A DNA stretch of 64,000 nt from Streptomyces sp. NBC_00654 (GTDB taxonomy: Bacteria > Actinomycetota > Actinomycetes > Streptomycetales > Streptomycetaceae), in NCBI RefSeq assembly GCF_026341775.1, contig NZ_JAPEOB010000001.1, forward strand, positions 2,480,001 to 2,544,000, written 5' to 3'. Position 1 is the first letter of the stretch. Each line of letters opens with the position of its first letter. Below, piece by piece: positions 1 through 30,495 of this stretch. The position numbers and the translations under genes were made by a program. The notes under the pieces are model-generated. The model was not told the DNA's origin. It worked only from the letters and a program-made list of their open reading frames with translations, and ran no database searches.

Positions 1-3000
1 TCGAACACCACGACTACACCCGCACGGTCGGCTGGTTCACCTCCATCGCGCCCGTACGGCTCACCCCGCGCACCGACCCCGTCGCGGCGGCGCGCGAGGT
101 CGCCGAACGCCAGCCGGACGAGCGCGGGCACGTCGCCTACGGCGCGCTCAGATACCTCAACCCGCAGACGGCCCCACTGCTGAACGCCCGCCCGCAGGTG
201 CTGTTCAACTACCTCGGCCGGGGCGGCGAGTCCGAGGTGCCGCGCCTCACCGGCGGGGACCGGGGCAGCCCGTACGCCGTCGAGGTCAACGCGTGGACCG
301 ACGAGGCCACCGGAAGCCTGCACGCGGCCTTCACCCTCGCGGAGGGCGTGTCCGACGAGATCACCGGGCACTGGCTCGGCGCACTGGAGCACATCGCGGA
401 CGTGTCCGCGACGGCCGAGCGCACCGCACCGGTCACCCCGCTCCAGCGGGGTCTGTTCTTCCAGGCCCAGATGGCGGGGACGGCCGGACACTATGTCGCG
501 CAGTCCTACTTCGCCTTCGACCGGCGCCTGGACACCGACGCGCTCGCCGGGGCGATGGCGTACGTGATCGCGAGGCACCCGGTCATGGGCGCCGGCTTCA
601 CCACCGACGACGGCGGAAACCCGGTCCAGGTCCTCAGGGCCGGCCGGCGGGTCGATGTCCGTACCGTCGCCCTGTCGACGGACGCGGAGGTCGACGCCCT
701 GCGCGCCCGGGACCGCGACACGGGATTCGACCCGGGGGAGCCGCCCCTGATCCGGCTCACCGTGGTGCGGCTGCCCGGTCACGGGGACGGGCTGCTGCTG
801 AGCTACCACCTGCTGCTGCTGGACGGCTGGTCCCGCGAGATCCTGCTGCGGGACCTGTTCGACGCCTATGAGACCGTCGTCGCGGGAGGGATACCGTCCG
901 CGTCGCCGGCCCTGCCGAGCTTCGAGGACCACGCCCGGACGCTCGCCGCCAAGGACCCCGCCGTGTCGGAGCGTTTCTGGGCGGAGCACCTGGCCGGCCT
1001 CAGCGGTCCGACCCTGCTCGCCGGACCGCGGCCGTCCCTCCCCGACGAACTGCCCCACGCGCTCGTGCGCACACTCTCCGCCGACCTGTCCGAACTGCTG
1101 CGGGAAGCGGCCAGGCTGCACGGCGTCACACTGAACTCGGTGCTGACCGGCGCGTTCGGCCTTCTCCTCGGCGCACACACGGGCCGCGCCGACGCCGTGT
1201 TCGGCGTGACCGTCTCGGGCCGGGACGGCGAGGGCCTGTCCGACATCGTCGGCGTGCTGCTCAACACCGTGCCCATGTGGACCCGGGCGCGCCCCCACGA
1301 CACGGTCCGCGACTACCTGTCGGCCGTCCAGGCGGCCCGGGTCGAGGCGATGGAGCACGAGCACCTGGGGCTCGGCGAGATCCAGCGGGCCAGCGGGCAC
1401 GACACCCTGTTCGACAACCTGTTCGTCCTCCAGAACTTCCTGGACATGGACGCGTTCGCCGAGATGAACGCCCGGCACGGCATCACCTCGGTGAAGGCCG
1501 ACGACTCCACGCACTACCCGTTCACCTGGGTCGTCACCCCCGGCGACCGGCTGACGGTCAAGCTGGAGCACCGCGACCACGACACCGGCAACGCCCGCCG
1601 TCTCCTGGACGGTTATGTGCGCGTGCTGGAGGACCTGGCCGGGGCGACGGGCCCGGTGGGGGCTCTGCCGGGCCTCGGAGCGGATCCCGCGCCCGCGGAA
1701 CGTACGGACGTGGGCACGGACACCGTCGTCGACCGGTTCGACCGGGCCGCGGACCGTGATCCGGGGCGGGTCGCGCTCGTCGCCCACGGTTCGGCCATGA
1801 CGTTCGGTGAACTCCGCGACCGCAGCCGCACGGTGGCAGGTGTGCTCGCCGGGCGGGGCATCGGCCCCGAGCAGGCCGTGGGCCTGGCGGTCCCGCGTTC
1901 CCTGGACTCGATCGTGGCGCTGTTCGCCGTGCTGCGCGTCGGCGCCGCGTACGTGCCGCTGGAGCTGGACCACCCGGACGAGCGGATCGCCACGATCGTC
2001 GCGGACGCCCGCCCGGAGGTGATCCTCACCGTCAGCGCCGTGTCGCCCCGGCTGACCGGCGAACTCATCGAGCTGGACCGCCCGTTGCCCGGGGCCGAGC
2101 CGTACGTGACCTTCGCGGCGGACGACCCGGACCGCCTGCGCCACCCCGCGTACACGATCTACACCTCCGGGTCGACCGGGAAGCCCAAGGGCGTGGTGAC
2201 CGAGTACGCCGGCCTCACCAACATGCTGATCAACCATCAGCGCCGGATCTTCGAACCGGTCCTCGCGGAGCACGGCAACCGGGTCTTCCGGATCGCCCAC
2301 ACGGTGTCGTTCGCGTTCGACATGTCGTGGGAGGAACTGCTGTGGCTCGCCGACGGCCATGAGGTGCACATCTGCGACGAGGAGCTGCGCCGCGACGCGC
2401 CCCGGCTGGTCGAGTACTGCCTGGAGCACGGGATCGACGTCATCAACGTGACGCCGACCTACGCGCAGCAACTGGTGGCCGAGGGACTGCTCGACCAGCC
2501 GGAGCGGCGGCCCGCGCTGGTACTGCTGGGCGGCGAGGCGGTCACCCCGACGCTGTGGCAGCGGCTGGCGGACACCGGGGGGACGGTCGGCTACAACCTG
2601 TACGGACCCACCGAATACACCATCAACACCCTCGGCGTCGGCACGTTCGAATGCCAGGACCCGGTGGTGGGCGTCCCGATCGACAACACCGAGGTGTACG
2701 TCCTGGACCCCTGGCTGCGGCCCCTGCCGGACGGAGCGCCCGGTGAGCTGTACGTGTCGGGCATCGGCATCGCGCGCGGTTATCTCGGGCAGAGCGCCCA
2801 GACCGCGCACCGCTTCGTGGCGTGCCCGTTCGGCGAACCCGGCGAACGGATGTACCGCACCGGGGACCTGGTGGTCCGGCGGACCGACGGCAATCTGACG
2901 TACCTGGGCCGCACCGACCAGCAGGTCAAGATCCGGGGTCACCGGGTCGAGCCGGGCGAGGTCGAGGCCGCGTTCGCGGCGCACCCGGCGGTACGCTTCG

Positions 3001-3482
3001 CCGCCGCGGTCGCCCAGCCCGACCCGCAGGTCGACGGCGCCCACCGGCTGGCCGCGTATCTCGTGCTGGACGGCTCCGGCCTGGCCGAGGTCGCCGCCGA
3101 GGTGGGCGCCGGGCTGCCGGACTTCCTGCGCCCGACGCACTACGCCCAGGTCGACAGCATCCCGCTGACGGTGAACGGGAAGGCCGACACCAAGGCGCTG
3201 CCGGAGGCGAAACCGCTGGGCGCGCTGACCACGGCGGGTGAACGCGGCCCGGAGACAGAGACCGAGACCGTGCTGTGCGAGCTCTTCGCCGAAGCGCTCG
3301 ACCTGGACGACGACGAGGTGAGCGCGGTGAGCGACTTCGTGTCCCTCGGAGGGCACTCCATGCTGGCGGTGCGGCTGATCGGGCTGCTCCGCCGGGAGTA
3401 CGGTCCTGTGGTCACCGTCCGTGACCTGTACACCCTGCGAACCCCGGAAGCGATTGCCCGTCACCTTGATGACCACTCCTGA
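1..3482 (+). CDS. cchH: Coelichelin-type NRPS, C-terminal part (E end, C, A, PCP), 5' truncated by window
   Basis: The reading frame is open from base 3, so this is the end of a larger gene. In order it shows the tail of an epimerisation domain (RTVGWFT, NYLGR; to about base 420), a condensation domain ([10 protein letters not shown] onward), an adenylation domain (about 1700-3200: [28 protein letters not shown] with its lysine) and a carrier domain whose LGGHS serine is at 3357-3359. It ends after the carrier with no thioesterase. The ten pocket residues read DMENLGLINK, which I recall as the code of formyl-hydroxyornithine-activating domains of coelichelin synthetase CchH. The domain order E-C-A-PCP and the following exporter, esterase and MbtH genes also match the cch cluster. 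Product is inferred to be coelichelin or a close relative. Odd: the condensation motif HHxxxDG is HLLLLDG. Confidence 0.85.
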
Positions 3483-5169
3483 CACGCAGAGGCCCCGCGC
3501 GGGGTCCCGGATCCTGCGGACCGCACTGCGCCGCAACGTCGGTGCCATGGCCTGGGGCACCGTCCTCATGGGCATGTACCAGGCGGCGGAGACCGCCTTC
3601 CCCATCGCGCTCGGCCTGATCGTCGAGCACACGATGCAGGACCGGAGCCTCGGCGCGCTCGCCGTGTCGATCGGCGCGCTGGCCGTGATCATCACGACGG
3701 TGTCGCTGTCGTGGCGGTTCGGCATGCGCATCCTGCAGAAGGCCAACACGACCGAGGCGCACCGCTGGCGGGTGCAGGTGGCGGCCTGCGGACTCCAGCC
3801 GGTGGCCAGGGACGTCGATCTGAAGTCCGGCGAGGTGCTGACCATCGCCACCGAGGACGCCGACCAGACCGCCGACATCATCGAGGTGGTGCCGCTGCTG
3901 ATCAGCTCACTGGTCGCGGTGCTGGTCGCGGCCGTCGCGCTGGGGCTGGCCGACATCCGGCTCGGCCTGCTGGTCATCGCGGGAACCGTCGCGATCCTGT
4001 CCATCCTGGCCGTGATGTCCAAGCGCATCGGTGCCAGTACCCGCGAACAGCAGGCCCGGGTGGCGCGGGCGGGCGCGAAGGTCGCCGACCTGATCACCGG
4101 CCTGCGCCCGCTGCACGGCTTCGGCGGCAACCACGCGGCGTTCCTCTCCTACCGGAAGGTCAGCACGGAGGCGAAGCACCAGGCGATCACCGTGGCCAGG
4201 GTGAACGGCGCCTACGCCGGTACGGCGCTGGCCCTCAACGCGGTCCTCGCCGCGGCGGTGACCCTGACGGCGGGCTGGCTGGCGTTCGGCGGCGTGATCA
4301 CCATCGGTGAGCTGGTCATGGCCGTGGGCCTCGCGCAGTTCATCATGGAACCGCTGAAGATGTTCTCGGAGATGCCGAAGTACGTGATGATCGCGCGCGC
4401 TTCGGCCGAACGGATGTCGCTGGTGCTGTCCGCGCCGCCGGTGACGGCCCCGGGCCCGGAGCGCCCGGCCGTGGGCGGCGATCTCGTGGTCGACTGCGTA
4501 CGGTACGGGTCCCTGCACGAGCTGAAGTTCGAGGTGCCCGCCGGCGAGTTCGTGGCGATCGCCGTCTACCAGCCTCGCGCGGCGGCCGACCTCGCGTCGG
4601 TCCTGGCCGTGAACGTCCCGCCCCATGCCTACGAGGGCACGGTACGGGTCGGCGGGCAGGCGATCGGGGACCTGTCCGTCGAGGCGGTCCGCGAACACCT
4701 GCTGGTGAACCCGTACGACGCTGAGATCTTCGCGGGAACCCTCCGTACGAACATCGATCCGTCGGGCACCAGCCGGACGGTCCCCGAGGCCGTCGAGGCG
4801 TCCATGCTGACCGATGTCGTCGCACTTCACCGCGAAGGACTCGACTACGGCGTCCGCGACCGCGGCGCGAACCTCTCCGGAGGGCAGCGCCAACGGCTGT
4901 CCCTGGCCCGCGCCCTCGCCGCCGACACCGAGATGCTGGTCCTGCACGACCCGACGACGGCCGTCGACGCGGTCACCGAACAGCTCATCGCACGCAACGT
5001 CGCGAAGCTGCGCCGAGGCCGCACCACCGTCGTGATCACCAGCAGCCCGGCCCTGCTGGACGCCGCCGACCGTGTGCTCGTCCTGGACGACGGCGTCATC
5101 ACCGCGCAGGACACCCACCGCAATCTGCTGGCCACCGACGAGGACTACTGCCTGGCCGTGGCGCGGTGA
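3469..5169 (+). CDS. cchI: ABC exporter (TMD-NBD fusion) with degenerate ATPase site, CchI-like
   Basis: A 566-residue half-transporter of the siderophore cluster. An N-terminal membrane domain of about six helices (residues 20-310) is followed by a nucleotide-binding domain. The ABC signature LSGGQRQRL is intact. The P-loop is replaced by [11 protein letters not shown] with no GxxGxGK. Walker B reads [11 protein letters not shown], so His-Asp stands where Asp-Glu is usual. Such a domain cannot be expected to hydrolyse ATP alone. The natural inference is a heterodimer with a second exporter (CchG in the coelichelin cluster), which would lie outside this window. The ATG at 3469 overlaps the NRPS end by 14 bases, indicating translational coupling. 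Likely role: export of the finished siderophore. Confidence 0.85.
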
Positions 5170-5332: not shown

Positions 5333-6448
5333 TCAGGCGAGCGCCCAGGCGACATCCCTGAGGAGGGCGTGCCGCCAGCCGGCCCGGTCGTGGCCCGAGG
5401 CCGACCGCGAGACCCGCACCGTCGCACCGGCCCGCTCGGCCAGCGTCTCGGCCAGCTCGCAGTGGGGCAGCATCCGCGTCTCGTGTTCCCCCACGTCGAA
5501 CGCGGCCCGCAGCCCGGACAGCCCCGGGTGCTCCCGCAGGCGCGCGGCGACGGCTCCGCCCACCGGGCCGCCCAGGGGATCCGCCGACTCCATGGCCTCG
5601 GGCGTCCACCAGAACGACGCGGACTGACAGGCGATCCGGGACACCAGGACCGGGAACTCCAGCGCCGCGTACAGCGCGCTCAGCCCGCCGAGACTCTGCC
5701 CGGCGACCACCAGCCGGTCCGGGTCGGCGGGTACGCCGGACTCCGCCACCAGCGGAAGCAGTTCGTCGCGGACCGCCTCCCACAGCTCCGGCCGGCACCC
5801 GAACTCGGCCGCCCGGTCCTTCGCCGGAAGGAAGACGAGCGTGACGGGGGGCATCTCCCCGGCGGCGACGGCCGAGTCGAACGCGGTCATGGCCGGGTGC
5901 AGATACAGCCAGTCGTCCCCGTCGAGCAGCAGGACCACCGGTCCGCCGCCGCCCGCCGGGTGGACCCGCACGGTACGCCGCCCGCCGAGCCGTTCGCTGT
6001 TCCAGCGGAGCCGGGCGGCCGGGACGGGGAGGATGTCCTCGGCGCCGATGACGGGCCAGTGCGGCTGGGCCGGGGCGTCCGGGGTCGCGGCGATGGACCG
6101 GTCACCGCCCGCGCCGACCGGGTTGAACGGGTCCGCGAACGCCGCGCCGTCCGCGACGAACCGGTAGGTCACCCGCAGCCGCGCGGGCATGCGCACCTCG
6201 GCGTACCAGCAGTCCGTACCCTCCCACCGGAGCAGGGGGACGGGCTCCGACCAGCTCTCGAAGTCGATGGCCGCCGAAGACCCACGCCACAGGAACACGG
6301 TGCACCAGCCGTCGCCGCCGTCGGCGGGTACCGACGCGGGTGTCCGCGCCGCCGCCCAGAACTCGTCGGTTCCGGGTTCGCCGTGCATGCCGAACCTGAC
6401 GAAGGGGTTCTCCCCGCCGGCCGCGCGGCCGGATGCGGGACCGGTCAT
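5333..6448 (-). CDS. cchJ: Fes/enterochelin-esterase-like hydrolase, CchJ-like
   Basis: A 371-residue protein with an N-terminal domain like enterochelin esterases (GEPGTDEFWAAA, later WYAEVRMP) and a C-terminal alpha/beta-hydrolase. The nucleophile motif is GQSLGG, the region LLLDGDDWLYLHP precedes it, and a late SGHDRAGWRHAL supplies the likely histidine. In coelichelin clusters the NRPS lacks a thioesterase and an esterase of this kind is proposed to release the peptide; breakdown of the ferric siderophore is the other possibility. There is no signal peptide, so it is probably cytoplasmic. Its ATG overlaps the stop of an upstream 33-codon ORF as ATGA, so translation is probably coupled. 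Transcription probably starts at the iron box 150 bases upstream. Confidence 0.85.
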   Translation of the reverse strand: MTGPASGRAAGGENPFVRFGMHGEPGTDEFWAAARTPASVPADGGDGWCTVFLWRGSSAAIDFESWSEPVPLLRWEGTDCWYAEVRMPARLRVTYRFVADGAAFADPFNPVGAGGDRSIAATPDAPAQPHWPVIGAEDILPVPAARLRWNSERLGGRRTVRVHPAGGGGPVVLLLDGDDWLYLHPAMTAFDSAVAAGEMPPVTLVFLPAKDRAAEFGCRPELWEAVRDELLPLVAESGVPADPDRLVVAGQSLGGLSALYAALEFPVLVSRIACQSASFWWTPEAMESADPLGGPVGGAVAARLREHPGLSGLRAAFDVGEHETRMLPHCELAETLAERAGATVRVSRSASGHDRAGWRHALLRDVAWALA

Positions 6449-6594: not shown

Positions 6595-6613
6595 TTAGGC
6601 GAGCCTAACCTAA
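6595..6613. promoter_or_regulatory. Iron box (DmdR1/IdeR operator), full consensus
   Basis: Read on the minus strand the site is TTAGGTTAGGCTCGCCTAA, which fits the actinobacterial iron-box consensus (TTAGGTTAGGCTnnCCTAA) at every fixed position. It lies in the divergent gap between the esterase unit and the MbtH-like gene. It can therefore serve both promoters, predicting repression by Fe-DmdR1. Confidence 0.9.
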
Positions 6614-7020: not shown

Positions 7021-7500
7021 GGGCCCGCCCGCGCGCTGCGCCTGCCGTACTCCCAGCGGGAGCTGGCCGGCGCGATCGGGCGCGCTGCCCGGACCTGTCT
7101 GGCCGAGGGGGTCACCGCCTGCGCCGAGGCGGGCATCGGCGGCACCCTCTTCGGCCACAGTCCGGTCGAGCCGGGTGCCTGCCAACTCGCCCGTGAGGAG
7201 GGATCGCTGCCGCTGCGGGTGCGGCTCATGGTGTCGGCGGAACGGCTTCGCCCGGTCTCCGCGCACGGGACCGATGGCATACCCCGGGCCCTGGACCTCG
7301 GCCTGCGCACCGGGTTCGGCGACGACCGTCTCTCCGTGGGCGCGCTGAAGATCTACACCGACGGCGGCATGATGGCCCGGACCGCCGCGCTCTCCGGCCC
7401 GTACGAAGGGCTGGACCACGCGGGTCAGTTGCAGGACGACCCCGACGTGCTCACGGAGATGATCGTGGACGGCCGCCTCGCAGGGTGGCAGCTCGCCGTC
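7021..7500 (+). pseudogene. Remnant of a YtcJ-type amidohydrolase (both ends missing)
   Basis: The frame from about 7021 reads as the middle of an amidohydrolase-3 (YtcJ-like) protein: a CLAEGVTACAEAGIGG segment, then GALKIYTDGGMMARTAALSG, then GRLAGWQLAV. Homology stops abruptly there, where HAIGD-type residues should follow, and runs into a GC-rich repetitive stretch. No plausible start or N-terminal metal-binding segment exists upstream. This is a decayed fragment, not a functional gene. Confidence 0.75.
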
Positions 7501-7554
7501 CTCCGGACCGGCCCCGCCGTGCGGTGCCGTGCCGTGCGGTGTCGTGTCGCGCGG

Positions 7555-7599
7555 CCGCCGGCCGGTGTCCCCGTCGAGAACGGGGGCACCGGCCGGCGG
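7555..7599. terminator. Long GC hairpin, terminator of the secreted-protein gene
   Basis: Two 19-base arms (7555-7573 and 7581-7599) pair with one mismatch around a 7-base loop. They lie just beyond the stop of the minus-strand gene at 7652. Confidence 0.75.
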
Positions 7600-7651
7600 T
7601 GTCGCTATCGCTGTCGCTGTTCCGTCCCGGCACCTCGCCGGGGGGGCCGGC

Positions 7652-8104
7652 TCAGAACACGAAGGGTCCCGGCGCCTGGGCCGATGTCGCGTTGCACGTC
7701 ACGCTGATGCCGAAGACCACGACCTTGAGGGATGTGGCCTCCAGACTGTCCCCGGAGGCCACGGTCCCGTTCAGCAGGCCCGTGGAGACGGGGCTTCCGG
7801 CCGGAATGGCAGGGTTGGAGCTGCCGGTGAACGTCACCGACCCCGCACCCTTGTTGGTGAGTGTGAGCGTCGACTTGACGGAGTTCGCCCCGACGTTGAT
7901 GGGGGCGGTGATGGCGGACGTCGAGACGTTGATGGTCGCGGCCGTCCCGCTCTGGGTGGCGGTGAGGGACGCGCTGCCCGAACCGTACGAACCGCAGTCG
8001 AACGTGATGGTTGCGGTGGTGGGGGTGACCGCGCTGGCTGTGGGGGCCAGCGCGAGCATGCCCGCAGCAAGGACGGAACCGATACCGAGCCGAGTGCCGT
8101 GCAT
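7652..8104 (-). CDS. Small secreted protein of unknown function
   Basis: A 150-residue protein with a clear signal peptide (MHGTRLGIGSVLAAGMLALAPTASA). The mature part is rich in Ser, Thr, Gly and Val, with two cysteines (FDCGSYG near the start and VTCNAT near the end) that could form one disulfide. The alternating pattern suggests a beta-sandwich. I do not recognise the family with certainty. It is monocistronic, with a GAAGGG ribosome site and a hairpin in the upstream leader. Confidence 0.75.
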   Translation of the reverse strand: MHGTRLGIGSVLAAGMLALAPTASAVTPTTATITFDCGSYGSGSASLTATQSGTAATINVSTSAITAPINVGANSVKSTLTLTNKGAGSVTFTGSSNPAIPAGSPVSTGLLNGTVASGDSLEATSLKVVVFGISVTCNATSAQAPGPFVF

Positions 8105-8410: not shown

Positions 8411-8481
8411 TTTTGCTTGTTCGTTGCGGTGTCACGGCGATGAGCCATTTCTTCGATCGTGGAAACCGAGGAGGGAAAGCC

Positions 8482-9003
8482 TTGTTCACGGTTACGCCGC
8501 GCCCTGCCCCGCTGCCGCACGCGCGCCTTGCGCCGGCGTCCTCCGTACGCTCCGCCCATGAGGGCGACGCTGCCGCGCTCGCCGAGTTGTCCCGGCCCTT
8601 CGTGCTCTCGGGGGCACTGAGGGAACGCCCTCTCCCGCTGTACGCCGCCCGCGCGGCCGAGTTCCTTGTGGCGGTGGCCCCCGAGGGCCCTTTGGAAGGC
8701 TGTGTGGGCCTGCGTGTATATCCGGCCGGCCCGGGGGAGGACCGGGGTCCCGCCGGTGTTCTGTACAACTTCTGCGTGGCCGGGCACAGACAGGGTCACG
8801 GGGTGGGAGCCGGGCTCCTGCGGGCCGTGCTGGCCATGGCGCACGCCCGGTCGCTCGGTGCGCTGTTCACGGCGACGACCGGTGGCGGCGGCCTGTTCCT
8901 CCGGTACGGGTTCGCGCCCGCGGCCGCAGGTCTGGCGCCGCCGTCCTGGGTGGAGTCCCTGGACCCCCGGCGCAACGCGCGGATCCTCGCGAGGCCGCTG
9001 TGA
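8482..9003 (+). CDS. GNAT-family N-acetyltransferase, putatively iron-regulated
   Basis: A 173-residue protein. The acetyl-CoA-binding segment is visible as FCVAGHRQGHGVGAGLLRAVLAMA, followed by FTATTGGGGLFLRYGF, typical of GNAT folds. I chose the TTG at 8482 because GAGGAGGG lies 6 bases upstream; longer in-frame starts at 8413 or 8440 have no ribosome site and run into the iron box. The substrate is unknown. The neighbouring siderophore genes and iron box suggest a role in iron starvation, perhaps modifying an amine of a siderophore or resistance to one; this is inference only. Confidence 0.75.
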   Translation: MFTVTPRPAPLPHARLAPASSVRSAHEGDAAALAELSRPFVLSGALRERPLPLYAARAAEFLVAVAPEGPLEGCVGLRVYPAGPGEDRGPAGVLYNFCVAGHRQGHGVGAGLLRAVLAMAHARSLGALFTATTGGGGLFLRYGFAPAAAGLAPPSWVESLDPRRNARILARPL

Positions 9004-9150: not shown

Positions 9151-10068
9151 TCAGACAGTGCTCCGGTCGGTGTGCGGACTGTCGCCGGGAACCACGGTGG
9201 TGCCGGGTCTGGTCCCGCCGAAGACGGCCCGCACCGCGTGCGGCACGCGTCCGTCGAGCACATGAGCCCTGTGTACGCCGCCGCGTACGGCCCGCAGGCA
9301 GCCCTCCATCTTGGGCAGCATCCCGCTCGCCAGATCCGGCAGCATCCCGTCCAGGGTGTCGGCCGTCAGACGCCCGATCACCTCGGTGCTGTGCGGCCAG
9401 TCCGCGTACAGCCCCTCCACATCGGTGAGCACCACCAGTCGCCGGGCGCCGAGGGCCACGGCGAGAGCCGACGCCGCGAGATCGGCGTTGACGTTGTAGA
9501 CCTGGCCGTCCTCGCCGCGAGCCACGGGGGAGACCACCGGGATGTGGCCCTGCTCCAGGAGCGCGCGGACCACCCCCGGGTTCACCTCCACGATGTCACC
9601 CACGAGACCGATGTCCACGGGCCGGTCGTCCACCCGGGCCCAGCGCCGCACCGCTGTCATCGTATGCGCGTCCTCGCCGGTCATGCCCACGGCGAAAGGT
9701 CCATGGGCGTTGATGTGTCCGACCAGTTCCCGCTGGACCCGGCCGGTCAGCACCATGCGCACGACCTCCATGATCTCCGGAGTGGTCACCCGCAGGCCCG
9801 CCTCGAACCGGGTCTCCAGCCCGAGACGGTCGAGCATCGCGCTGATCTGCGGCCCGCCCCCGTGCACGACGACCGGGCGCAGACCCGCGTGCCACAGCTC
9901 CACGACGTCCTGGGCGAACGTCCGCTGCAGGGCGGCGTCCACCATCGCGTTGCCGCCGAACTTGACGACGACCACACCGTCCGGCGGTTCCTCCGGCCGG
10001 ATTCGAGGCCCTCCGGCCGGATCCGCGTCCGCGCGCTGCGAGACAACTTCCGCTGCCCGATGGGTCAT
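9151..10068 (-). CDS. argB: Acetylglutamate kinase paralogue (ArgB family)
   Basis: A 305-residue amino-acid-kinase fold protein. It keeps the Lys of VVKFGGNAM, the glycine-rich HGGGPQI, the substrate region [16 protein letters not shown] and the late Lys of SGMLPKMEG, so it should be active as N-acetylglutamate 5-kinase, the second step towards ornithine. It is not in an arg operon. It follows an isochorismatase-like gene by 76 bases, and the pair is headed by an iron box. A housekeeping argB is expected elsewhere. The inference is an iron-induced extra copy that raises ornithine supply for the hydroxyornithine siderophore encoded next door. Confidence 0.85.
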
Positions 10069-10144
10069 GGTCTCCGTCTCTCGTCGGTACCCGTCTGTCC
10101 TGCGCGCCCGTCTGTCCGTCCGGCGCCTCCGGCGCGCGAAGCGG

Positions 10145-10801
10145 TCACGCGTTCTTCGGTTCCCTGTGCAGGAGCAGGCCGCGCAACAGGCCGTCCGTCA
10201 TGCAGACCATGCCGCTGCGTGCGGCCCAGCGGAGCGCCAGGGAGTGTTCCTCGGCGGAGAAGTCGGCCACCGCGTCGGCGACGACGAACGGCTGGATGTC
10301 GTTCATGAAGGCGTCCGCGGCGGTCAGCAGGACACCGAGGTGTGCGTACACCCCGCAGATGATCAGCTGGTCGCGGCCGTTCGCGCGCAGCAGTCTGCCG
10401 AGATGGCTGCGCAGGAAGGCGTTGTGACGCACATTCGGCAGCAGATGCTCACCGGGGCGTGGAGTGAGGGGCGCGACGATCGCGGCGGCATCGGTCTCGT
10501 CCCCGATGCCCGGACCCCACATGTCGGCGACCAGCCCGCGCTGTCCCGGCTCCTGCCCGGCCGGCTCCGCGCTGAAGATGACCGGCATGCCCAGCGTCCC
10601 GGCGAGTTCCCGGAGCGCCGCGATGTTGTCGACGAGTTCCCGTACGGGTGAGCGCCCCGCCGGAAACGCTCCGACGAAGTGGCTCTGCATGTCGTGGACC
10701 AGCAGCGCGGCGCGCGCCGGATCGATCCTCCAGGAGACCTGCGACTGAGGAAGGGCGCCGCGCTCCGGCATGGGATAGGCGTCGATGGCGGGTAGGCGCA
10801 T
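10145..10801 (-). CDS. Isochorismatase-family protein (EntB/PhzD-like) lacking the catalytic Lys
   Basis: A 218-residue protein that aligns end to end with EntB N-domain and PhzD: AYPMPE at the start, [11 protein letters not shown] with the catalytic Asp, [15 protein letters not shown] and VADAVADFS. The conserved Lys of the triad (KWRYSAF in EntB/PhzD) is Asn here, in [10 protein letters not shown]. It has no aryl-carrier domain and there are no EntA/C/E genes nearby. Activity on isochorismate is therefore doubtful; another vinyl-ether or amide substrate, or a binding role, is possible. It has a GGGGAG ribosome site. First gene of an iron-box-headed unit with the ArgB paralogue. Confidence 0.82.
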
Positions 10802-10860: not shown

Positions 10861-10879
10861 TTAGCTTAGCCTAACCTAA
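10861..10879. promoter_or_regulatory. Iron box upstream of isochorismatase-argB unit
   Basis: The sequence TTAGCTTAGCCTAACCTAA differs from the IdeR/DtxR consensus TTAGGTTAGsCTAACCTAA at one position. It lies 60 bases upstream of the minus-strand start at 10801, in promoter position. This predicts repression by Fe-DmdR1. Confidence 0.82.
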
Positions 10880-15408: not shown

Positions 15409-15480
15409 CCGCGATGTCTCCGGCGGGCGGCTCAAACCCCGTAACTCCCTTGGAAACACCCTTCTTGTGGCATTATGTCG

Positions 15481-15505
15481 TCAATTGCGGGGCGGGTGCC
15501 GATCA
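15481..15505 (+). promoter_or_regulatory. Candidate WhiG-type promoter of whiH
   Basis: TCAA (15481-15484) and GCCGATCA (15498-15505) resemble the WhiG/FliA-type -35 and -10 elements (TAAA ... GCCGATAA). Their 13-base spacer is shorter than the usual 15-16. The position gives a leader of about 55 bases before the GTG at 15569. whiH is known to depend on sigma-WhiG in S. coelicolor. Confidence 0.45.
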
Positions 15506-15568
15506 CCCTTTCGTGTGCTTTTCACCAAAGACCTCAAGAGGCGGGCGCGCCGCGCCGACAAAGGATGC

Positions 15569-16456
15569 GTGAGTACCCTTGCGCACACCATGATGACCGC
15601 CGCCCGCTCCGCCGACTCCGGCCTCGCCGGCTCGGGCGAACTCGACCGCTACCCCTACACGGAGGCGCCGGCCGGCGAGCGCGCCGCGATCCGCTCGTGG
15701 GGCGGACCCGATTCCGAGCTGGGGCGGGCGAGCCGACGCGGGGCTGCCAGCCGAGGACGTGGCCTCCACGGCCAACTCGTTCAGCAGCTGGGCCAGATGA
15801 TCGTTTCCGGAGATCTCGGCGCCGATCGCCCGCTCGTTCCCGAGGAGATCGGTCAGCGTTTCGAGGTCTCCCGTACTGTCGTGCGTGAGTCCCTGCGCGT
15901 GCTGGAGGCCAAGGGCCTGGTCAGCGCGCGTCCCAATGTCGGTACGCGGGTGCGTCCGGTCAGTGACTGGAATCTGCTGGACCCCGACATCATCGAATGG
16001 AGGGCCTTCGGTCCCCAGCGTGACGACCAGCGTCGCGAGCTGGCCGAGCTCCGCTGGACGATCGAGCCGCTCGCGGCCCGGCTGGCGGCCGGGCATGGAC
16101 GTGAGGACATCCAGCAGCGGCTCGGCGACATGGTCGAGATCATGGGCCACGCGCTGGGGCAGGGGGACGCGATCACGTTCTCCCGGGCGGATGCGGAATT
16201 CCACTCCCTGCTCATCCAGGCCGCGGGCAACCGGATGCTGGAGCACCTCTCCGGCATCGTCTCGGCGGCGCTGCATGTCTCCGGAGGACCCGTCACTGGC
16301 TGTGACCGCCCGGCCGAGGCGTCGCTCGCCCACCACGCCCGGATCGTCGAAGCCCTCGCCTCCGGCGATTCCGCGGCCGCCGAGACGGCCATGCGCCAAC
16401 TGCTCGTCGTTCACCCCGAGGTGGAGCGGGTGGTTCCCGCGCCGCGCGAGCACTGA
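15569..16456 (+). CDS. whiH: WhiH, GntR-family sporulation regulator
   Basis: A 295-residue GntR/FadR-type regulator. The winged helix covers about residues 60-125 (LVPEEIGQRFEVSRTVVRESLRVLEAKG, RPNVGTRV). An FCD effector domain follows (LRWTIEPLAARLAAGH, DAEFHSLLIQAAGN, HARIVEAL). Its position directly before hrdB and its length identify it as whiH (SCO5819 in S. coelicolor), which controls sporulation septation in aerial hyphae. The GTG at 15569 has AAAGGA upstream and begins MSTLAHTMMTAARSADSG. A perfect hairpin follows the stop. Confidence 0.92.
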   Translation: MSTLAHTMMTAARSADSGLAGSGELDRYPYTEAPAGERAAIRSWGGPDSELGRASRRGAASRGRGLHGQLVQQLGQMIVSGDLGADRPLVPEEIGQRFEVSRTVVRESLRVLEAKGLVSARPNVGTRVRPVSDWNLLDPDIIEWRAFGPQRDDQRRELAELRWTIEPLAARLAAGHGREDIQQRLGDMVEIMGHALGQGDAITFSRADAEFHSLLIQAAGNRMLEHLSGIVSAALHVSGGPVTGCDRPAEASLAHHARIVEALASGDSAAAETAMRQLLVVHPEVERVVPAPREH

Positions 16457-16779
16457 CCGCAGCACGGCCGGGGTGCATGGACCCTGTGCCGCCGGACCCT
16501 CCGGTCCGGCGGCACAATTGTGGGGGGATGTCACCCCTGGCACTGTTCGTCGCAAATGAGGTGTGACTCGGGCCACGCGGATTGGGCGTAACACTCCTCG
16601 AAACAGTGCGATGACTTAAGAGGTGACCGCCGCAGAAGGAATACAGCAGCCATTCAGCGCGCTGTGCAGTTCTGAGGCCAAACCCGCGCCGTCGGCGACA
16701 TCCCCAGTCGACGGTCGTCGGTTCCAGCCCTCTCCAGGGCCGGGCCGGAAGCCGTTTCCATCGTTCCGAGAGGTTGTTC
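16457..16779. other. Leader/promoter region of hrdB
   Basis: 323 bases without a gene. It begins with the whiH terminator hairpin and then holds the hrdB promoter region. I see no unambiguous -35/-10 pair. A GGAAT at 16638-16642 resembles a sigma-R -35 but lacks a proper GTT at the expected distance. Confidence 0.5.
16486..16515 (+). terminator. Terminator of whiH
   Basis: Perfect 13-base arms GTGCCGCCGGACC and GGTCCGGCGGCAC surround a CTCC loop, followed by AATTGT. Confidence 0.85.
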
Positions 16780-18327
16780 GTGTCGGCCAGCACATCCCGT
16801 ACGCTCCCGCCGGAGATCGCCGAGTCCGAGTCTGTGATGGCGCTCATCGAGCGGGGAAAGGCTGATGGGCAGATCGCCGGCGATGACGTGCGTCGGGCCT
16901 TCGAGGCTGACCAGATTCCGCCAACCCAGTGGAAGAATGTTCTGCGCAGCCTCAACCAGATCCTCGAGGAAGAGGGTGTGACGCTGATGGTCAGTGCCGC
17001 GGAGTCGCCGAAGCGCGCCCGCAAGAGCGTCGCAGCGAAGAGCCCGGTCAAGCGCACCGCCACCAAGACCGTCGCGGCCAAGACGACCGTGACGAGGACC
17101 GTCGCGGCCTCCGCCGCCCAGACGGCCGAGAGTGCGGACGCGGTGGCCGACGACGCCACAGCGGCCGCTCCCGCGAAGAAGACAGCAGCCAAGAAGACCG
17201 CTGCCAAGAAGACCGCCGCGAAGAAGACGGCGGCCAAGAAGACAGCGACGAAGAAGTCCGGCAAGCAGGACGACGAGCTCCTCGACGGTGACGAGGCGGC
17301 CGAGGAAGTCAAGGTCGGCAAGGGTGAGGAAGAGGAGGGCGAGGGCGAGAACAAGGGCTTCGTCCTCTCCGATGACGACGAGGACGACGCACCTGCCCAG
17401 CAGGTCGCCGTCGCCGGCGCCACGGCCGACCCGGTCAAGGACTACCTGAAGCAGATCGGCAAGGTTCCGCTCCTCAACGCCGAGCAGGAGGTCGAGCTCG
17501 CCAAGCGCATCGAGGCGGGTCTCTTCGCCGAGGACAAGCTGGCGAACTCGGACAAGCTCGCGCCGAAGCTCAAGCGCGAGCTGGAGATCATCGCCGAGGA
17601 CGGGCGCCGCGCCAAGAACCACCTGCTGGAGGCCAACCTCCGGCTCGTGGTCTCGCTGGCCAAGCGCTACACCGGTCGCGGCATGCTCTTCCTGGACCTG
17701 ATCCAGGAGGGCAACCTCGGCCTGATCCGTGCCGTCGAGAAGTTCGACTACACCAAGGGCTACAAGTTCTCCACGTACGCCACCTGGTGGATCCGTCAGG
17801 CGATCACCCGCGCCATGGCGGACCAGGCCCGCACCATCCGTATCCCGGTGCACATGGTCGAGGTCATCAACAAGCTCGCGCGCGTCCAGCGCCAGATGCT
17901 CCAGGACCTGGGCCGTGAGCCCACCCCGGAGGAGCTGGCCAAGGAGCTCGACATGACCCCCGAGAAGGTCATCGAGGTCCAGAAGTACGGTCGTGAGCCG
18001 ATCTCCCTCCACACCCCGCTGGGTGAGGACGGTGACAGCGAGTTCGGTGACCTGATCGAGGACTCCGAGGCGGTCGTTCCGGCCGACGCGGTCAGCTTCA
18101 CGCTCCTCCAGGAGCAGCTGCACTCGGTGCTCGACACCCTCTCGGAGCGTGAGGCCGGCGTGGTCTCGATGCGTTTCGGTCTGACCGACGGCCAGCCGAA
18201 GACGCTGGACGAGATCGGCAAGGTCTACGGCGTGACGCGTGAGCGCATCCGTCAGATCGAGTCGAAGACGATGTCGAAGCTTCGTCACCCCTCGCGTTCC
18301 CAGGTGCTGCGCGACTACCTCGACTAG
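16780..18327 (+). CDS. hrdB: HrdB, principal (RpoD-type) sigma factor
   Basis: A 515-residue primary sigma factor. The N-terminal part contains a Lys/Ala-rich stretch of repeated KKTAA units (about residues 128-155) and an acidic segment. The conserved core then follows: region 1.2 ([17 protein letters not shown]), region 2 with [14 protein letters not shown], region 3 and region 4.2 ([19 protein letters not shown]). It directs transcription of housekeeping genes. The GTG at 16780 with AGAGG upstream gives [16 protein letters not shown], as in S. coelicolor HrdB (511 residues). It stands alone between terminators. Confidence 0.98.
17176..17260 (+). repeat. KKTAA-encoding microrepeat inside hrdB
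   Basis: About five near-identical 15-base units of the form AAGAAGACAGCAGCC encode successive Lys-Lys-Thr-Ala-Ala blocks resembling histone-H1-like tails. Copy number is probably variable between strains. Confidence 0.85.
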
Positions 18328-18351
18328 GCCGCGGACGCACGGAGCCGGACA

Positions 18352-18401
18352 CACAGGCCGAGGGCCCGGACCCCATGGGGGAGCCGGGCCCTCGGCCTGT
18401 G
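18352..18401 (+). terminator. Terminator of hrdB
   Basis: Perfect 18-base arms (18352-18369 and 18384-18401) with a 14-base loop, 25 bases after the hrdB stop. Confidence 0.9.
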
Positions 18402-18471
18402 CGCGGATGCGGGCCCGGGAGCGTTGGACGACTCTGGGTGGACCTTGATCACCGCAGCGTCAGGAGACTTC

Positions 18472-19302
18472 ATGTTCCGTACCGTCGTCCGTGCCCTGCC
18501 CGGGGTACTCGCCCTGACCGCCGTGACGGCCGTGGTGCCGCCCGGAACCCCCGCCTCGGCCGCCGTGGGCGGCATCATCATCGGCGGACAGCCCGCCTCC
18601 GTGGCGGACAGCCCCTGGGTCGTGGCCGTGTCGAGCCGTGACCGGTTCGGAGGAACGCGCGCAGGTCAGTTCTGCGGCGGGGTGGCGGTGGCTCCGACGA
18701 AGGTGCTGACGGCGGCCCACTGCCTGAGCGGTGAGGTGCTCGGCGGGGACGTGGCCGACGTGGACGATCTGCGGATCATCTCGGGCCGGGACCGGCTGCG
18801 CGACTCCAGCGGTCAGGAGATCGCCGTACGGGCGTCATGGGTCAATCCCGGATACGACCGGGACTCCAACGCGGGTGATCTCGCGGTGCTCACTCTGGCG
18901 GCCCCGTTGCCGGAGAGCAGCGTGATCAGGATGGCTCCGGAGAGTGACAACGCCTACGCGGCCGGTACCGGTGCCGTCGTCTACGGGTGGGGCGACAAGA
19001 GCGGCAGCGGTGCCTACGCGTCGGCTCTGCGCTCCGCCGAGGTCGAGCTTCTGCCGGACAGCACGTGCGAGCGTGCCTACCCGGGCGGCCCGGAGGGCAC
19101 GTACGAGGCCTCAGCGATGGTCTGCGCGGGCGATCCGGAGGGCGGGCACGATGCCTGCCAGGGGGACAGCGGCGGGCCTCTGGTGGCCCGTGGGCGGCTT
19201 GTCGGCCTGGTCTCCTGGGGCAGCGGCTGCGGGCGCGCCGACAGCCCCGGGGTCTACACCCGGGTCTCCGCGGCCATGCGCTGGGCGGCCGGCCGGATCT
19301 GA
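18472..19302 (+). CDS. Secreted trypsin-like serine protease
   Basis: A 276-residue S1-family protease. A signal peptide ([30 protein letters not shown]) is followed by the mature start IIIGGQPA. The triad is visible as His in LTAAHCL, Asp in DLAVLTL and Ser in CQGDSGGPL, with GWG and SWGSGC around the pocket. An aspartate six residues before the Ser (DACQGDSGG) suggests trypsin-like specificity for Lys/Arg. The ATG at 18472 has AGGAGA upstream. It lies between hrdB and parE as in S. coelicolor. Confidence 0.92.
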
Positions 19303-19327
19303 CCGGAAGCGGCGCGAAACGGCGAGA

Positions 19328-19362
19328 ACGGGCGGTTCCCCCTCATCGGGGGAGCCGCCCGT
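19328..19362. terminator. Bidirectional terminator between protease and DUF7455 genes
   Basis: Arms ACGGGCGG / CCGCCCGT plus inner CCCCC / GGGGG pairs between two convergent genes. Confidence 0.75.
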
Positions 19363-19407
19363 CGGCCGGTCCGGGACCGGCCCCTGGCTCGTCGTGGATG
19401 CGAGGTG

Positions 19408-19641
19408 TCAGTGTTGTTCCTCTTCGGCGGCACTGGCCTGTACGGCGGTGAGCCGATCCGTCTCATCCTGTATTTCCGCGGCGATCTTCTTGAGTTCCGG
19501 CTCGAACTTGCGACCATGGTGGGCGCAGAAGAGCAGTTCACCGCCACTGATCAGGACGACGCGCAGATATGCCTGGGCGCCGCAACGGTCACAGCGGTCT
19601 GCTGCGGTCAGCGGGCTCGCGGGGGTCAGAACAGTAGTCAC
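19408..19641 (-). CDS. DUF7455 zinc-ribbon-like small protein
   Basis: A 77-residue conserved actinobacterial protein. It begins MTTVLTPASPLTAADRCDRCGA; CxxC and a later FCAHHGRKF give a likely Cys2-Cys/His zinc site, and the C-terminal half is a charged helix. It is commonly found next to the principal sigma factor gene in Streptomyces. The function is not known; a nucleic-acid or polymerase-associated role is possible but unproven. Confidence 0.85.
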   Translation of the reverse strand: MTTVLTPASPLTAADRCDRCGAQAYLRVVLISGGELLFCAHHGRKFEPELKKIAAEIQDETDRLTAVQASAAEEEQH

Positions 19642-20084
19642 GTCGCCTCTTCTCTAGCTCGACGAGCTGTCGTACCAGGGTCAACATCCAACCAGGCCGA
19701 AAACGTTCCCGCTCGTGGCTTTTCTTCGAAACTTCTTCTCAGGATGGCTGACTGTTGCCGGTTGGCGGCGAATGTGCCGTATTGCGTAGCGCTACGGTTT
19801 CGCGTTGCTTGTCTTGGTCGGTCCGCCGGCTGGCTTGCCGGTTGTTCATGAGGACGTGCCCGGAGCCTAAATGGTTCATGCCTCGAAGGGAACGTGATGT
19901 GCACGTCACTCCAACGAATGATCGAACATTCATGCGAGCCTGGAAGCGGCTCGACTAGCATGAGGATTCCCCGAGGGTGGCGTTACAACCGCTCTACCAG
20001 GCCTCGGTAGGCTCTCAGCGGCAACCGAAGCCGAGCCCGTTACCCACTTGGGGCCCAAATGAAATTCAGCGAGGAGCGAACCGC
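19642..20084. other. Divergent intergenic region upstream of parE
   Basis: About 440 bases with lower GC than the neighbours. It holds a perfect palindrome CGTAGCGCTACG (19785-19796), two copies of TTGCCGGTTG, and an inverted repeat GAATG-N6-CATTC at about 19916-19931. Promoters for the DUF7455 gene (leftward) and parE (rightward) must lie here; I cannot assign them firmly. No gene is seen. Confidence 0.55.
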
Positions 20085-22217
20085 GTGACCGCCGATACGT
20101 CCGTGCCGTCCACTGCGCTGCTGACCGGAGCAGGCGGCGTCGTAGACAGGGACAGCTCCAACTACACCGCGCGGCACCTTCTCGTACTCGAAGGGCTCGA
20201 GGCGGTCCGCAAGCGCCCCGGGATGTACATCGGGTCCACCGACAGCCGCGGTCTCATGCACTGCCTCTGGGAGATCATCGACAACTCCGTCGACGAGGCC
20301 CTCGGCGGCTACTGCGACAACATCGAGGTGATCCTCCACGACGACTCGTCCGTCGAGGTCCGCGACAACGGTCGTGGCATCCCGGTCGACGTGGAGCCCA
20401 AGACCGGTCTCTCCGGCATCGAAGTCGTCATGACCAAGCTGCACGCCGGCGGCAAGTTCGGCGGCGGCTCCTACGCCGCCTCGGGCGGCCTGCACGGTGT
20501 GGGCGCCTCCGTCGTCAACGCCCTCTCCGCCCGCCTGGACGTCGAGGTCGACCGCAACAGCGCGACCCACTCCATCAGCTTCCGGCGCGGGGTCCCCGGC
20601 ATGTTCACCGAGCAGGGGCCGGACAGCCCGTTCGATCCGGCCAACGGCCTGCGCAAGGGGAAGCGGGTTCCGAAGACCCGTACCGGTACCCGGGTGAGGT
20701 ACTGGGCCGACCGGCAGATCTTCCTCAAGGACGCCAAGCTCAACCTGGAGACCCTGTACCAGCGGGCCCGCCAGACGGCGTTCCTCGTCCCCGGCCTCAC
20801 GATCGTCGTGCGCGACGAGCGGGGGATCGACGGCGAGGGCAAGACGGAGGAGACATTCCGCTTCGACGGCGGGATCAGTGAATTCTGCGAGTACCTGGCC
20901 CAGGACAAGGCCGTCTGCGACGTCCAGCGCCTGACCGGCACAGGTACGTTCAAGGAGACCGTCCCGGTCCTGGACGACCGCGGTCACATGACCCCGACCG
21001 AGGTCACCCGGGAACTGGGGGTGGACATCGCGCTGCGCTGGGGCACCGGCTACGACACCAACATCAAGTCCTTCGTCAACATCATCGCCACCCCCAAGGG
21101 CGGCACACATGTGACCGGATTCGAGCGCTCCCTCACCAAGACGGTCAACGAGGTGCTGCGCTCCGCCAAACTGCTGCGCGTGGCCGAGGACGACGTCGTC
21201 AAGGACGACGCGCTGGAGGGCCTCACCGCGGTCGTCACCGTACGGCTCGCGGAGCCGCAGTTCGAAGGGCAGACGAAGGAGGTGCTCGGCACCTCGGCGG
21301 CCAACCGGATCGTCGCCAATGTGGTGGCCAAGGAACTCAAGGCCTTCCTGACCTCGACCAAGCGGGACGCCAAGGCCCAGGCCAGGTCGGTGCTGGAGAA
21401 GGCGGTGGCAGCCGCCCGTACGCGCATCGCGGCCCGCCAGCACAAGGACGCGCAGCGCCGCAAGACCGCGCTGGAGTCCTCGTCACTGCCCGCCAAGCTC
21501 GCCGACTGCCGCAGCGACGACGTGGACCGCAGCGAGCTCTTCATCGTGGAGGGCGACTCGGCCCTCGGTACGGCCAAGCTGGCCCGGAACAGCGAATTCC
21601 AGGCTCTGCTGCCGATCCGGGGCAAGATTCTCAATGTCCAGAAGTCATCCGTCTCGGACATGCTCAAGAACGCCGAGTGCGGCGCCATCATCCAGGTCAT
21701 AGGGGCAGGGTCCGGACGGACCTTCGACATCGACTCCGCCCGCTACGGCAAGATCGTTCTGCTGGTGGACGCCGATGTCGACGGTGCCCACATCCGGTGT
21801 CTGCTGCTGACCCTGTTCCAGCGGTACATGCGGCCGATGGTCGAGGCGGGACGGGTCTTCGCCGCGGTGCCCCCACTGCACCGGATCGAACTCGTCCAGC
21901 CCAAGAAGGGGCAGGACAAGTACATCTACACCTACTCCGACGGCGAGCTGCGCCAGACACTGCTGGAGCTCCAGCGCAAGAACGTCCGGTTCAAGGATTC
22001 GATCCAGCGCTACAAGGGCCTCGGCGAGATGGACGCCGACCAGCTGGCGGAGACCACGATGGATCCCCGTCACCGCACGCTGCGCCGGATCAACATCGGG
22101 GACCTCGAGTCCTCCGAGCACGTCTTCGACCTGCTGATGGGCAACGAGGTCGCCCCCCGCAAGGAGTTCATCACCAGCTCGGCGGCGACCCTGGACCGCT
22201 CGCGCATCGACGCCTGA
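20085..22217 (+). CDS. parE: DNA topoisomerase IV subunit B (ParE)
   Basis: A 710-residue type IIA topoisomerase ATPase subunit. The GHKL ATPase part has RPGMYIGST, NSVDEALGG and GGLHGVGASVVNAL. The TOPRIM part has EGDSALGTAKLARN and DADVDGAHI, and the C-terminus has YKGLGEMDADQL. It pairs with ParC at 30496-32946 to decatenate chromosomes. The GTG at 20085 with GAGGAG upstream gives MTADTSVPSTALL; the frame extends 36 codons further without a better start. Corresponds to SCO5822. Confidence 0.95.
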   Translation: MTADTSVPSTALLTGAGGVVDRDSSNYTARHLLVLEGLEAVRKRPGMYIGSTDSRGLMHCLWEIIDNSVDEALGGYCDNIEVILHDDSSVEVRDNGRGIPVDVEPKTGLSGIEVVMTKLHAGGKFGGGSYAASGGLHGVGASVVNALSARLDVEVDRNSATHSISFRRGVPGMFTEQGPDSPFDPANGLRKGKRVPKTRTGTRVRYWADRQIFLKDAKLNLETLYQRARQTAFLVPGLTIVVRDERGIDGEGKTEETFRFDGGISEFCEYLAQDKAVCDVQRLTGTGTFKETVPVLDDRGHMTPTEVTRELGVDIALRWGTGYDTNIKSFVNIIATPKGGTHVTGFERSLTKTVNEVLRSAKLLRVAEDDVVKDDALEGLTAVVTVRLAEPQFEGQTKEVLGTSAANRIVANVVAKELKAFLTSTKRDAKAQARSVLEKAVAAARTRIAARQHKDAQRRKTALESSSLPAKLADCRSDDVDRSELFIVEGDSALGTAKLARNSEFQALLPIRGKILNVQKSSVSDMLKNAECGAIIQVIGAGSGRTFDIDSARYGKIVLLVDADVDGAHIRCLLLTLFQRYMRPMVEAGRVFAAVPPLHRIELVQPKKGQDKYIYTYSDGELRQTLLELQRKNVRFKDSIQRYKGLGEMDADQLAETTMDPRHRTLRRINIGDLESSEHVFDLLMGNEVAPRKEFITSSAATLDRSRIDA

Positions 22218-22280
22218 GGGTTCTCCATCCGTGGGCGGAGAGCGATTCTCCACCCACGGTCAACCCCCGGGCATCGAGGA

Positions 22281-22322
22281 CAGGGGCCGGGGGCGGTCCG
22301 ATACGCGCCGCCCCGGCCCCTG
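22281..22322. terminator. Terminator between convergent parE and peptidase genes
   Basis: Arms CAGGGGCCGGGGGCGG and CCGCCCCGGCCCCTG pair over 15 bases around an 11-base loop. Confidence 0.8.
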
Positions 22323-22339
22323 TGCCGGGTCCTTCCGGT

Positions 22340-23842: not shown

Positions 23843-24046
23843 GCGGGTCACTGTTCCGGCCCCGCATGATGGCACTTCTACGGGCACATGGTGGGAACGT
23901 AACAACGGGGCTCCCGACGAACCCTCAAGTCCTCCCGGACCGGGCGTGGTTCGGGCCCGACCGACTGCCGGCCCCTTGCGTGCCACGAGCCGGGCCCCTT
24001 GCGTGCCAGAAGGCCGGGCCCGCGCCCCCCGGCCTTCCTGCTCCGC

Positions 24047-26391: not shown

Positions 26392-26473
26392 CGTACGAAC
26401 GGTAGAGGGGGTTCCGGCCCTTCCGGAAATCCCGGCGGACGGCCGGCGGAGCGGATCCCCCGCCGGGGTTTCC

Positions 26474-29206: not shown

Positions 29207-29229
29207 CGACATTCCGAGGAAGGCCCCCG

Positions 29230-30423: not shown

Positions 30424-30495
30424 GCGCCGTCCCGTGATCCACGCCCGTCAGGGACCACGGGACAGCGCTCGGCGTGAAGGCCGGCCGCCTCGCCG

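Follow-up and report, generated by a model that had tools for sequence, protein, structure and literature searches.

We analysed a 64,000-nucleotide stretch of the genome of Streptomyces sp. NBC_00654 (contig NZ_JAPEOB010000001.1, positions 2,480,001 to 2,544,000 of the forward strand; hereafter the window). Its minus strand carries a paralogue of argB, the gene for acetylglutamate kinase (NAGK), and, 76 bases upstream on the same strand, a gene for an isochorismatase-fold protein, here called ico, which is itself preceded by an iron box:

9151..10068, minus strand: argB paralogue, acetylglutamate kinase of the iron-controlled lineage (305 amino acids, intact)
10145..10801, minus strand: ico, isochorismatase-fold protein of a Streptomyces clade (218 amino acids, PF00857)
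10861..10879, minus strand: iron box upstream of ico-argB (TTAGGTTAGGCTAAGCTAA, a pattern match)

From sequence comparison across Streptomyces, these elements are best read as a trimmed operon for ornithine supply under iron control, part of a coelichelin-type siderophore cluster, with a putatively arginine-insensitive ArgB that would feed the siderophore. We put this reading at a probability of about 0.77.

The window ArgB scores 236 bits against TIGR00761, for which the curated cut-off is 151, and with its 305 residues it stands as the apparently intact enzyme that an earlier sequence-only reading of this DNA had described. Its best matches in the PDB are acetylglutamate kinases, with ArgB of M. 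tuberculosis at the top. It is not the only copy in its genome: a housekeeping argB, about 64% identical at the protein level, lies at C2:1472737 inside an argCJBD cluster (locus L181), which rules out that the window holds the sole argB. The ratio of nonsynonymous to synonymous substitution rates (dN/dS) of argB is 0.27-0.34 in 6 pairs.

By hand count, at least 42 of 199 Streptomyces genomes hold a second ArgB of the window lineage. The lineage is drawn at 70% identity or more, with G031 and G153 left out (70%, the sole match of their genome); the tally comes from the matches listed, may miss fragmentary copies and includes one copy ended by a contig end (G156). The 69 lineage loci used below consist of 40 of the 42 genome copies with up to 20 kb around each (the window's own and that of G009 were not refetched), the window, and 28 loci from the scan for ico relatives, and three pairs among them are alike. 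Motifs were counted in 66 ArgBs, after exclusion of L014 (a match through a preceding stop, an artefact), L150 (two stops) and L161 (contig end); the 66 include three pairs with an identical core (L018/L152, L035/L138 and L020/L158). Four motifs, HGGGPQI, GxRVT, N[IV]NAD and PK, which we take to have catalytic or substrate roles, are present in 66/66, the window included.

The arginine site of NAGK is described by the motif E-(L/I)-(F/M)-(T/S)-xx-G-x-G-T (PMC4490483), and arginine-sensitive NAGKs have an N-terminal extension of 19-38 residues (PMC3329491). The loop motif is found in 20/20 housekeeping ArgBs and in 0/66 of the window lineage, while its Glu is found in 20/20 and 9/66, respectively. 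The strict N-helix motif, EALPWL, shows the same counts (20/20 against 9/66). The upstream part of the helix, HTALPKA, is present in 0/66 lineage members and in 19/20 housekeeping proteins as extracted, where the start of housekeeping L164 was cut short, its EALPWL being seen separately. Where the housekeeping enzyme reads HSILLEIFTDEGIGT, the window ArgB reads a different 15 residues, and it has neither EALPWL nor the P-W that some relatives keep from the end of this helix.

When modelled with AlphaFold2 from 23 sequences (mean predicted local distance difference test (pLDDT) value of 71), the window ArgB has residues 1-21 at pLDDT <50 and no helix before residue 39. Of the two marks of the arginine-sensitive subclass, the arginine loop and the N-terminal interlacing helix, the window ArgB displays neither, the N-terminal part of the model being of low confidence. 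The enzyme should therefore run at plentiful arginine, because the arginine-binding Glu loop and the N-terminal helix are missing; judged by motif loss, it is probably arginine-insensitive. The sequence-only reading had proposed that this gene lifts the arginine-controlled step to supply a precursor, and on comparative grounds this idea is strengthened, since the lineage lost the arginine-site motif (0/66) and mostly the N-helix but kept the catalytic motifs (66/66). In a tree computed without the arginine-site columns, the window lineage forms one side of a branch with support 93, and the nine sequences that have both Glu and EALPWL fall outside a group of 55 that have neither (support 94). 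This tree has 98 rows, with L152 and L158 also dropped, and was made by a quick method that leaves 47 of its 94 inner branches open.

The iron box at 10861-10879 has 0 mismatches to the search pattern and lies 59 bp before the ATG of ico, the first gene. When up to 3 mismatches are allowed, the pattern gives 4 hits at two places in the window, whereas none is expected from 100 shuffles, which rules out a chance box. We presume the box to be of the DmdR/IdeR type. The box is a strong one, and ico-argB has in its promoter region the feature expected of an iron-repressor regulon. Across the lineage, an iron box lies no more than 450 bp ahead of the operon's first gene in 65/69 loci when starts of the matches are used, and in 59/69 when gene starts are extrapolated and the distance is capped at 400 bp. 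A box is found in 0/20 hand-chosen housekeeping argB loci, examined as stretches of 11-20 kb.

The adjoining siderophore cluster lies mostly outside the window, in L012 (C1:2463449-2480000), which by Pfam matches contains a formyltransferase, a Lys/Orn monooxygenase, FecCD, an ABC ATPase, a binding protein, an ABC exporter and a nonribosomal peptide synthetase (NRPS). The NRPS has three modules in one continuing frame; two of its adenylation domains lie in L012 and the third in the window. By Pfam, the component set of a coelichelin-type cluster is present (formyltransferase, Lys/Orn monooxygenase, FecCD, binding protein, three-module NRPS, exporters and esterase). The predicted layout is that of the coelichelin cluster, as assigned on Pfam content and gene order, and we take the cch gene names to apply. 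The coelichelin-type genes in L012 and the window bear out that a hydroxyornithine siderophore cluster adjoins argB.

Homologues of siderophore genes are found in the stretch (up to about 10 kb on each side) in 63/69 lineage loci, against 0/20 housekeeping argB loci under the same criteria. The six loci without them are L028, L086, L127 and L161, which meet contig ends, and L142 and L143, which do not. A coelichelin-type ornithine monooxygenase, at least 77% identical to the cluster's own, occurs in 59/199 genomes (hand count) and, among the matches listed, in 36/42 genomes with lineage argB compared with 23/157 without. The Fisher p of 6e-18 for this association over the 199 genomes is overstated because the genomes are related and not independent. 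Five of the remaining six argB genomes have a monooxygenase relative of 59-62% identity within about 3 kb of argB. The co-occurrence with siderophore clusters is thus far from random, and the counts together with the housekeeping control dispose of a pair distributed at random with respect to siderophores.

The origin of the two-gene arrangement can be read from relatives of ico. A scan of 84,980 species, each represented by one genome, with six peptide patterns gave at least 79 loci, in a list that may be incomplete; 35 belong to the Streptomyces clade and make, with the window, 36 ico-anchored loci. In 17/36, ico is followed by argC and argB, and in 10 of the loci the full order ico-argC-argJ-argB-argD is seen. 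The sole arg gene is argB in 13/36 (the window and 12 others), and zero arg genes are present in 6/36. None of the 36 keeps argC, argJ or argD without argB, which indicates that argB is the last arg gene to be lost. In the window, no argC, argJ or argD adjoins argB. Since relatives hold an iron-boxed ico-argC-argJ-argB-argD operon, the window pair is, by this comparison of gene orders, a trimmed remnant of such an operon. The description of argB as standing outside any arg operon therefore suits the trimmed form in the window and fails for the relatives with the whole iron-boxed argCJBD.

The core of the system is argB and not ico. Beside lineage argB in the 42 genomes, a hand count gives an intact ico in 12, a partial match in 3 and none in 27. 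Each gene occurs without the other (27/42 genomes; 6/36 loci), which rules out ico as a necessary partner of argB. The pairing that the sequence-only reading had singled out does recur in relatives, although it is not the unit.

The ico protein matches PF00857 with 115 bits against a cut-off of 27, and its predicted structure (pLDDT 89.9) has the isochorismatase fold, with 40-49% identity and TM-scores of 0.86-0.93 to the 18 best solved chains found by Foldseek, all isochorismatases or PhzD. The isochorismate site of SmEntB includes Asp37, Gln79, Arg88, Lys123, Tyr152 and Gly156 (PMC12210187). The ico clade has the fold in common with EntB, VibB, PhzD and SmEntB and mostly keeps Asp37, but unlike them it has Asn or His for Lys123, mostly Glu for Gln79 and a variable residue at Tyr126. 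Asp37 is kept in the window, where E79, N123 and H126 (SmEntB numbering) stand instead of Q79, K123 and Y126, so that neither Lys123 nor Gln79 of an isochorismatase active site is present; other letters at position 37 occur in clade members L024, L039, L041 and the frameshifted L086. Position 123 is Asn or His in every Streptomyces ico readable there, and position 79 is Glu in nearly all of them, with Val in L039 and L041 and another reading in L086. Both Gln79 and Lys123 are found in every homologue of 41-52% identity that was scored, except the frameshifted Streptomyces copy L086; among them is a canonical relative with K123 and Q79 in the window's own genome (L004). The label "EntB-like" is thus right for the fold and wrong for the active site.

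With the catalytic Lys and the substrate-binding Gln replaced and the canonical L004 elsewhere, a working isochorismatase is rejected as the most likely role, and an ordinary one is unlikely. The dN/dS of ico, 0.13-0.33 in 7 pairs, implies that the protein is maintained, and a decaying relic in the window is not favoured for that reason. Partial or frameshifted copies occur in some relatives (L086, L090, L138, L151 and L154). Our best guess is that the protein serves in binding or regulation, with another ligand, or else that it is an altered hydrolase.

Extra ArgBs near other biosynthetic clusters were compared as well, and the arginine-site Glu is absent in 11/14 of these loci. The ArgBs of L184, L185 and L195 (genomes G109, G128 and G087) form a lineage of their own; these loci have iron boxes and include a formyltransferase and a monooxygenase next to argB. 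L186-L194 hold extra ArgBs near monooxygenases of 48-53% identity, with no iron box; 6/9 of them are without the arginine-site Glu, and their clusters may possibly, as a guess, be of piperazate type. L196 and L197 have no formyltransferase or monooxygenase homologue in the stretch examined. In four of the 14 (L184, L185, L195 and L197), one of the four catalytic patterns is not matched, so some cluster-borne ArgBs may not be active kinases. At the usual site, the genomes that carry L184, L185 and L195 retain only ico (L198-L200), and their argB was apparently replaced by these non-orthologous copies; a fourth ico-alone genome (G032, L201) has one argB match only. A wider view is that ArgBs of N-hydroxyornithine clusters repeatedly lose the arginine sensor, after which only argB stays, with ico as a binding pseudoenzyme. 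The loss would have occurred once in the iron-controlled Streptomyces lineage and apparently again in L184/L185/L195 and in L186-L190 and L192. We regard the odds on this wider view as even.

Several observations weigh against an iron-controlled, desensitised supply enzyme. Nine lineage members keep both Glu and EALPWL, which means that iron control came there without desensitisation, and a P-W remnant of the helix end persists in 20 further members, the window not among them. The arginine sensitivity of the Streptomyces housekeeping ArgB, with which the lineage is compared, is something we infer from its motif and helix. No box is at the expected place in L022, L138 and L148, the last a 4.5 kb contig. 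L142 (genome G143) carries a lineage argB with no iron box upstream, its stretch shows no siderophore homologue, and a monooxygenase match is absent from the whole genome; L143 has an iron box, and siderophore homologues are absent from its stretch. Among the 42 copies, that of G179 (L150) is a pseudogene interrupted by two stops. Finally, 23/59 genomes with the coelichelin-type monooxygenase lack lineage argB, from which argB appears helpful and not required. The suggested order of events is that a whole operon first came under iron control, that arginine sensing was lost next and that the other arg genes went last; this order is not uniform, because 4 of the nine Glu-keepers (L039, L040, L041 and L149) are already trimmed.

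The chief alternative is plain dosage, in which an extra kinase is made under iron starvation, the changed N- and C-termini are drift and the enzyme is still arginine-sensitive. Full argCJBD copies in many relatives are what dosage would predict, and it can also draw on the nine members with Glu and EALPWL and the 20 with a P-W remnant. Against it, the loss is selective, sparing the catalytic motifs (66/66) and removing the arginine motif (0/66), and the loss of Glu recurs in other cluster-borne ArgBs (11/14). Moreover, argB is the gene retained where the operon is trimmed, and the AlphaFold2 model is below pLDDT 50 at residues 1-21 and has no helix before residue 39. We consider dosage unlikely on this balance.

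A dedicated two-enzyme module of ico and argB, making a novel catechol- or chorismate-derived building block, would account for their adjacency with argB as the sole arg gene in the window and 12 other ico-anchored loci, and for the constraint on ico (dN/dS 0.13-0.33 in 7 pairs). It is hard to reconcile with the absence of ico beside argB in 27/42 genomes and of argB in 6/36 ico-anchored loci, or with an ico clade that has no K123 while L004 of the same genome has K123 and Q79, and we judge it very improbable. Slightly less credible still is a tailoring kinase that acts on another acyl amino acid, such as a hydroxylated or formylated glutamate. Its location in a biosynthetic cluster and its identity of only about 64% to the housekeeping enzyme would allow such a role, but the best PDB matches are acetylglutamate kinases, HGGGPQI, GxRVT, N[IV]NAD and PK are kept in 66/66, and many relatives carry the lineage argB in argCJBD operons. 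The trimmed ornithine-supply operon remains the preferred reading.

The part of the siderophore cluster inside the window and the other neighbours of argB are as follows:

3..3482, plus strand: 3' end of the siderophore NRPS, with the last condensation, adenylation and carrier domains (starts in L012)
3421..5169, plus strand: ABC exporter of the siderophore cluster (profile matches)
5333..6448, minus strand: siderophore esterase (PF00756; 178 bits to the enterochelin-esterase model NF007758, below its cut-off of 222)
6595..6613, minus strand: second iron box, upstream of the esterase (pattern match)
7219..7707, plus strand: truncated remnant of an Amidohydro_3 (PF07969) gene (Pfam)
8413..9003, plus strand: GNAT acetyltransferase resembling the acetyltransferase domain of acetylglutamate synthase (convergent with argB)

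We take the esterase at 5333-6448 to be CchJ-like and the exporter at 3421-5169 to be CchI-like. In several relatives (e.g. L013, L015, L017, L018 and L048), a nearly full-length Amidohydro_3 homologue stands between the GNAT and the esterase. An open reading frame at 7652-8104 (minus strand, 150 amino acids) has good codon bias and, by eye, a signal-peptide-like start, with zero Pfam or NCBIfam matches. Core genes adjoin the cluster at 15467-33102, among them an FCD/GntR regulator, a principal-type sigma factor (16774-18327), gyrase/topoisomerase subunits (19977-22217 and 30496-33102) and citrate synthase (28043-29206).

The GNAT protein touches the pathway one step earlier. Its best PDB match is the acetylglutamate synthase of N. 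gonorrhoeae (E 3.6e-7), followed by weak matches to the amino-acid acetyltransferases 5yge and 5yo2 (E about 0.02). In the N. gonorrhoeae enzyme, Arg316 and Arg425 bind glutamate, Ser427 belongs to the glutamate site and Glu353 is the proposed general base (PMC4490483). R72 and R187, which correspond to Arg316 and Arg425, are kept in 61/61 GNAT homologues found among 75 loci, and an iron box lies upstream of 44/58 GNAT copies near lineage argB. A weak iron-box-like site at 8392 (at least 15 of 19 positions) abuts the listed start of the window's GNAT gene (8413-9003). A synthase role is disfavoured by the residues at two sites, as the Ser427 position is Ala in the window (Ala in 45/61 and Ser in 16/61) and Glu353 aligns with Val. 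The protein also scores far below the NCBIfam cut-offs (33.6 against 202.85 bits for TIGR01890 and 21.3 against 180 for NF005921), and a separate, clear acetylglutamate synthase encoded at C1:834743 counts against the role as well. An iron-controlled first step through the GNAT is plausible on this evidence.

In the proposed mechanism, the repressor would leave the box at 10861-10879 at low iron, and ico and argB would be transcribed. The second ArgB would make acetylglutamyl phosphate, perhaps from acetylglutamate that the GNAT may supply, and the housekeeping ArgC, ArgJ and ArgD (L181) would complete ornithine. If insensitive as predicted, the window ArgB would stay active despite plentiful arginine and open the valve that limits ornithine, which would then pass to the monooxygenase and the formyltransferase of the cluster, while ico would be a constrained accessory.

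Supply of ornithine by genes inside a cluster is already known. In the lunaemycin and stenothricin clusters, argC/argJ/argB/argD homologues are proposed to supply ornithine to the product (PMC9866976). They share with the window lineage their cluster-borne ornithine-biosynthesis genes, but they are not siderophore clusters, and the portion of that paper available mentions neither iron control nor loss of arginine control. The window-lineage copies differ from them in lying under iron boxes and in having a derived ArgB without the arginine site, and in the window argB stands alone. Coelichelin uses hydroxyornithine and formyl-hydroxyornithine, and its cluster shares with the present one the formyltransferase-type and ornithine-monooxygenase steps, the three-module NRPS and iron control; the text available of that report mentions no dedicated arg gene, with 0 occurrences of 'argB' (PMC9854754). 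Among the kinases themselves, the fold and catalytic motifs are shared with the arginine-sensitive hexameric NAGKs of T. maritima, P. aeruginosa and Corynebacterium (PMC3329491, PMC10464499, PMC4490483). Unlike these, the window ArgB has neither the arginine-site motif nor the N-terminal helix motif, and in this absence it resembles the arginine-insensitive NAGK of E. coli. In Aspergillus fumigatus, siderophore synthesis is likewise tied to the supply of ornithine as precursor; the system differs in that it belongs to a fungus, relies on synthesis in mitochondria and has a putative transporter for ornithine, and a desensitised NAGK is not mentioned in the available parts of these papers (PMC3688985, PMC4387927). 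A literature search over titles and abstract openings of the matches listed, mostly of openly readable papers, brought up no recognised iron-controlled or desensitised argB in a siderophore cluster, and within that search the iron-controlled, desensitised version of cluster-borne ornithine supply was not found.

If the reading holds, the lineage would be a natural answer to the problem of drawing ornithine from a pathway shut by arginine, which strain engineers solve by mutation, and thus an evolutionary counterpart of industrial feedback-resistant argB strains. The sequences offer a simple rule, in that a second argB without E-(L/I)-(F/M)-(T/S)-xx-G-x-G-T would flag clusters that demand ornithine, and the lineage is a candidate source of feedback-resistant NAGKs. 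It also appears to record the stepwise reduction of an operon from argCJBD to argB. Iron status would be tied directly to the step that controls a primary pathway.
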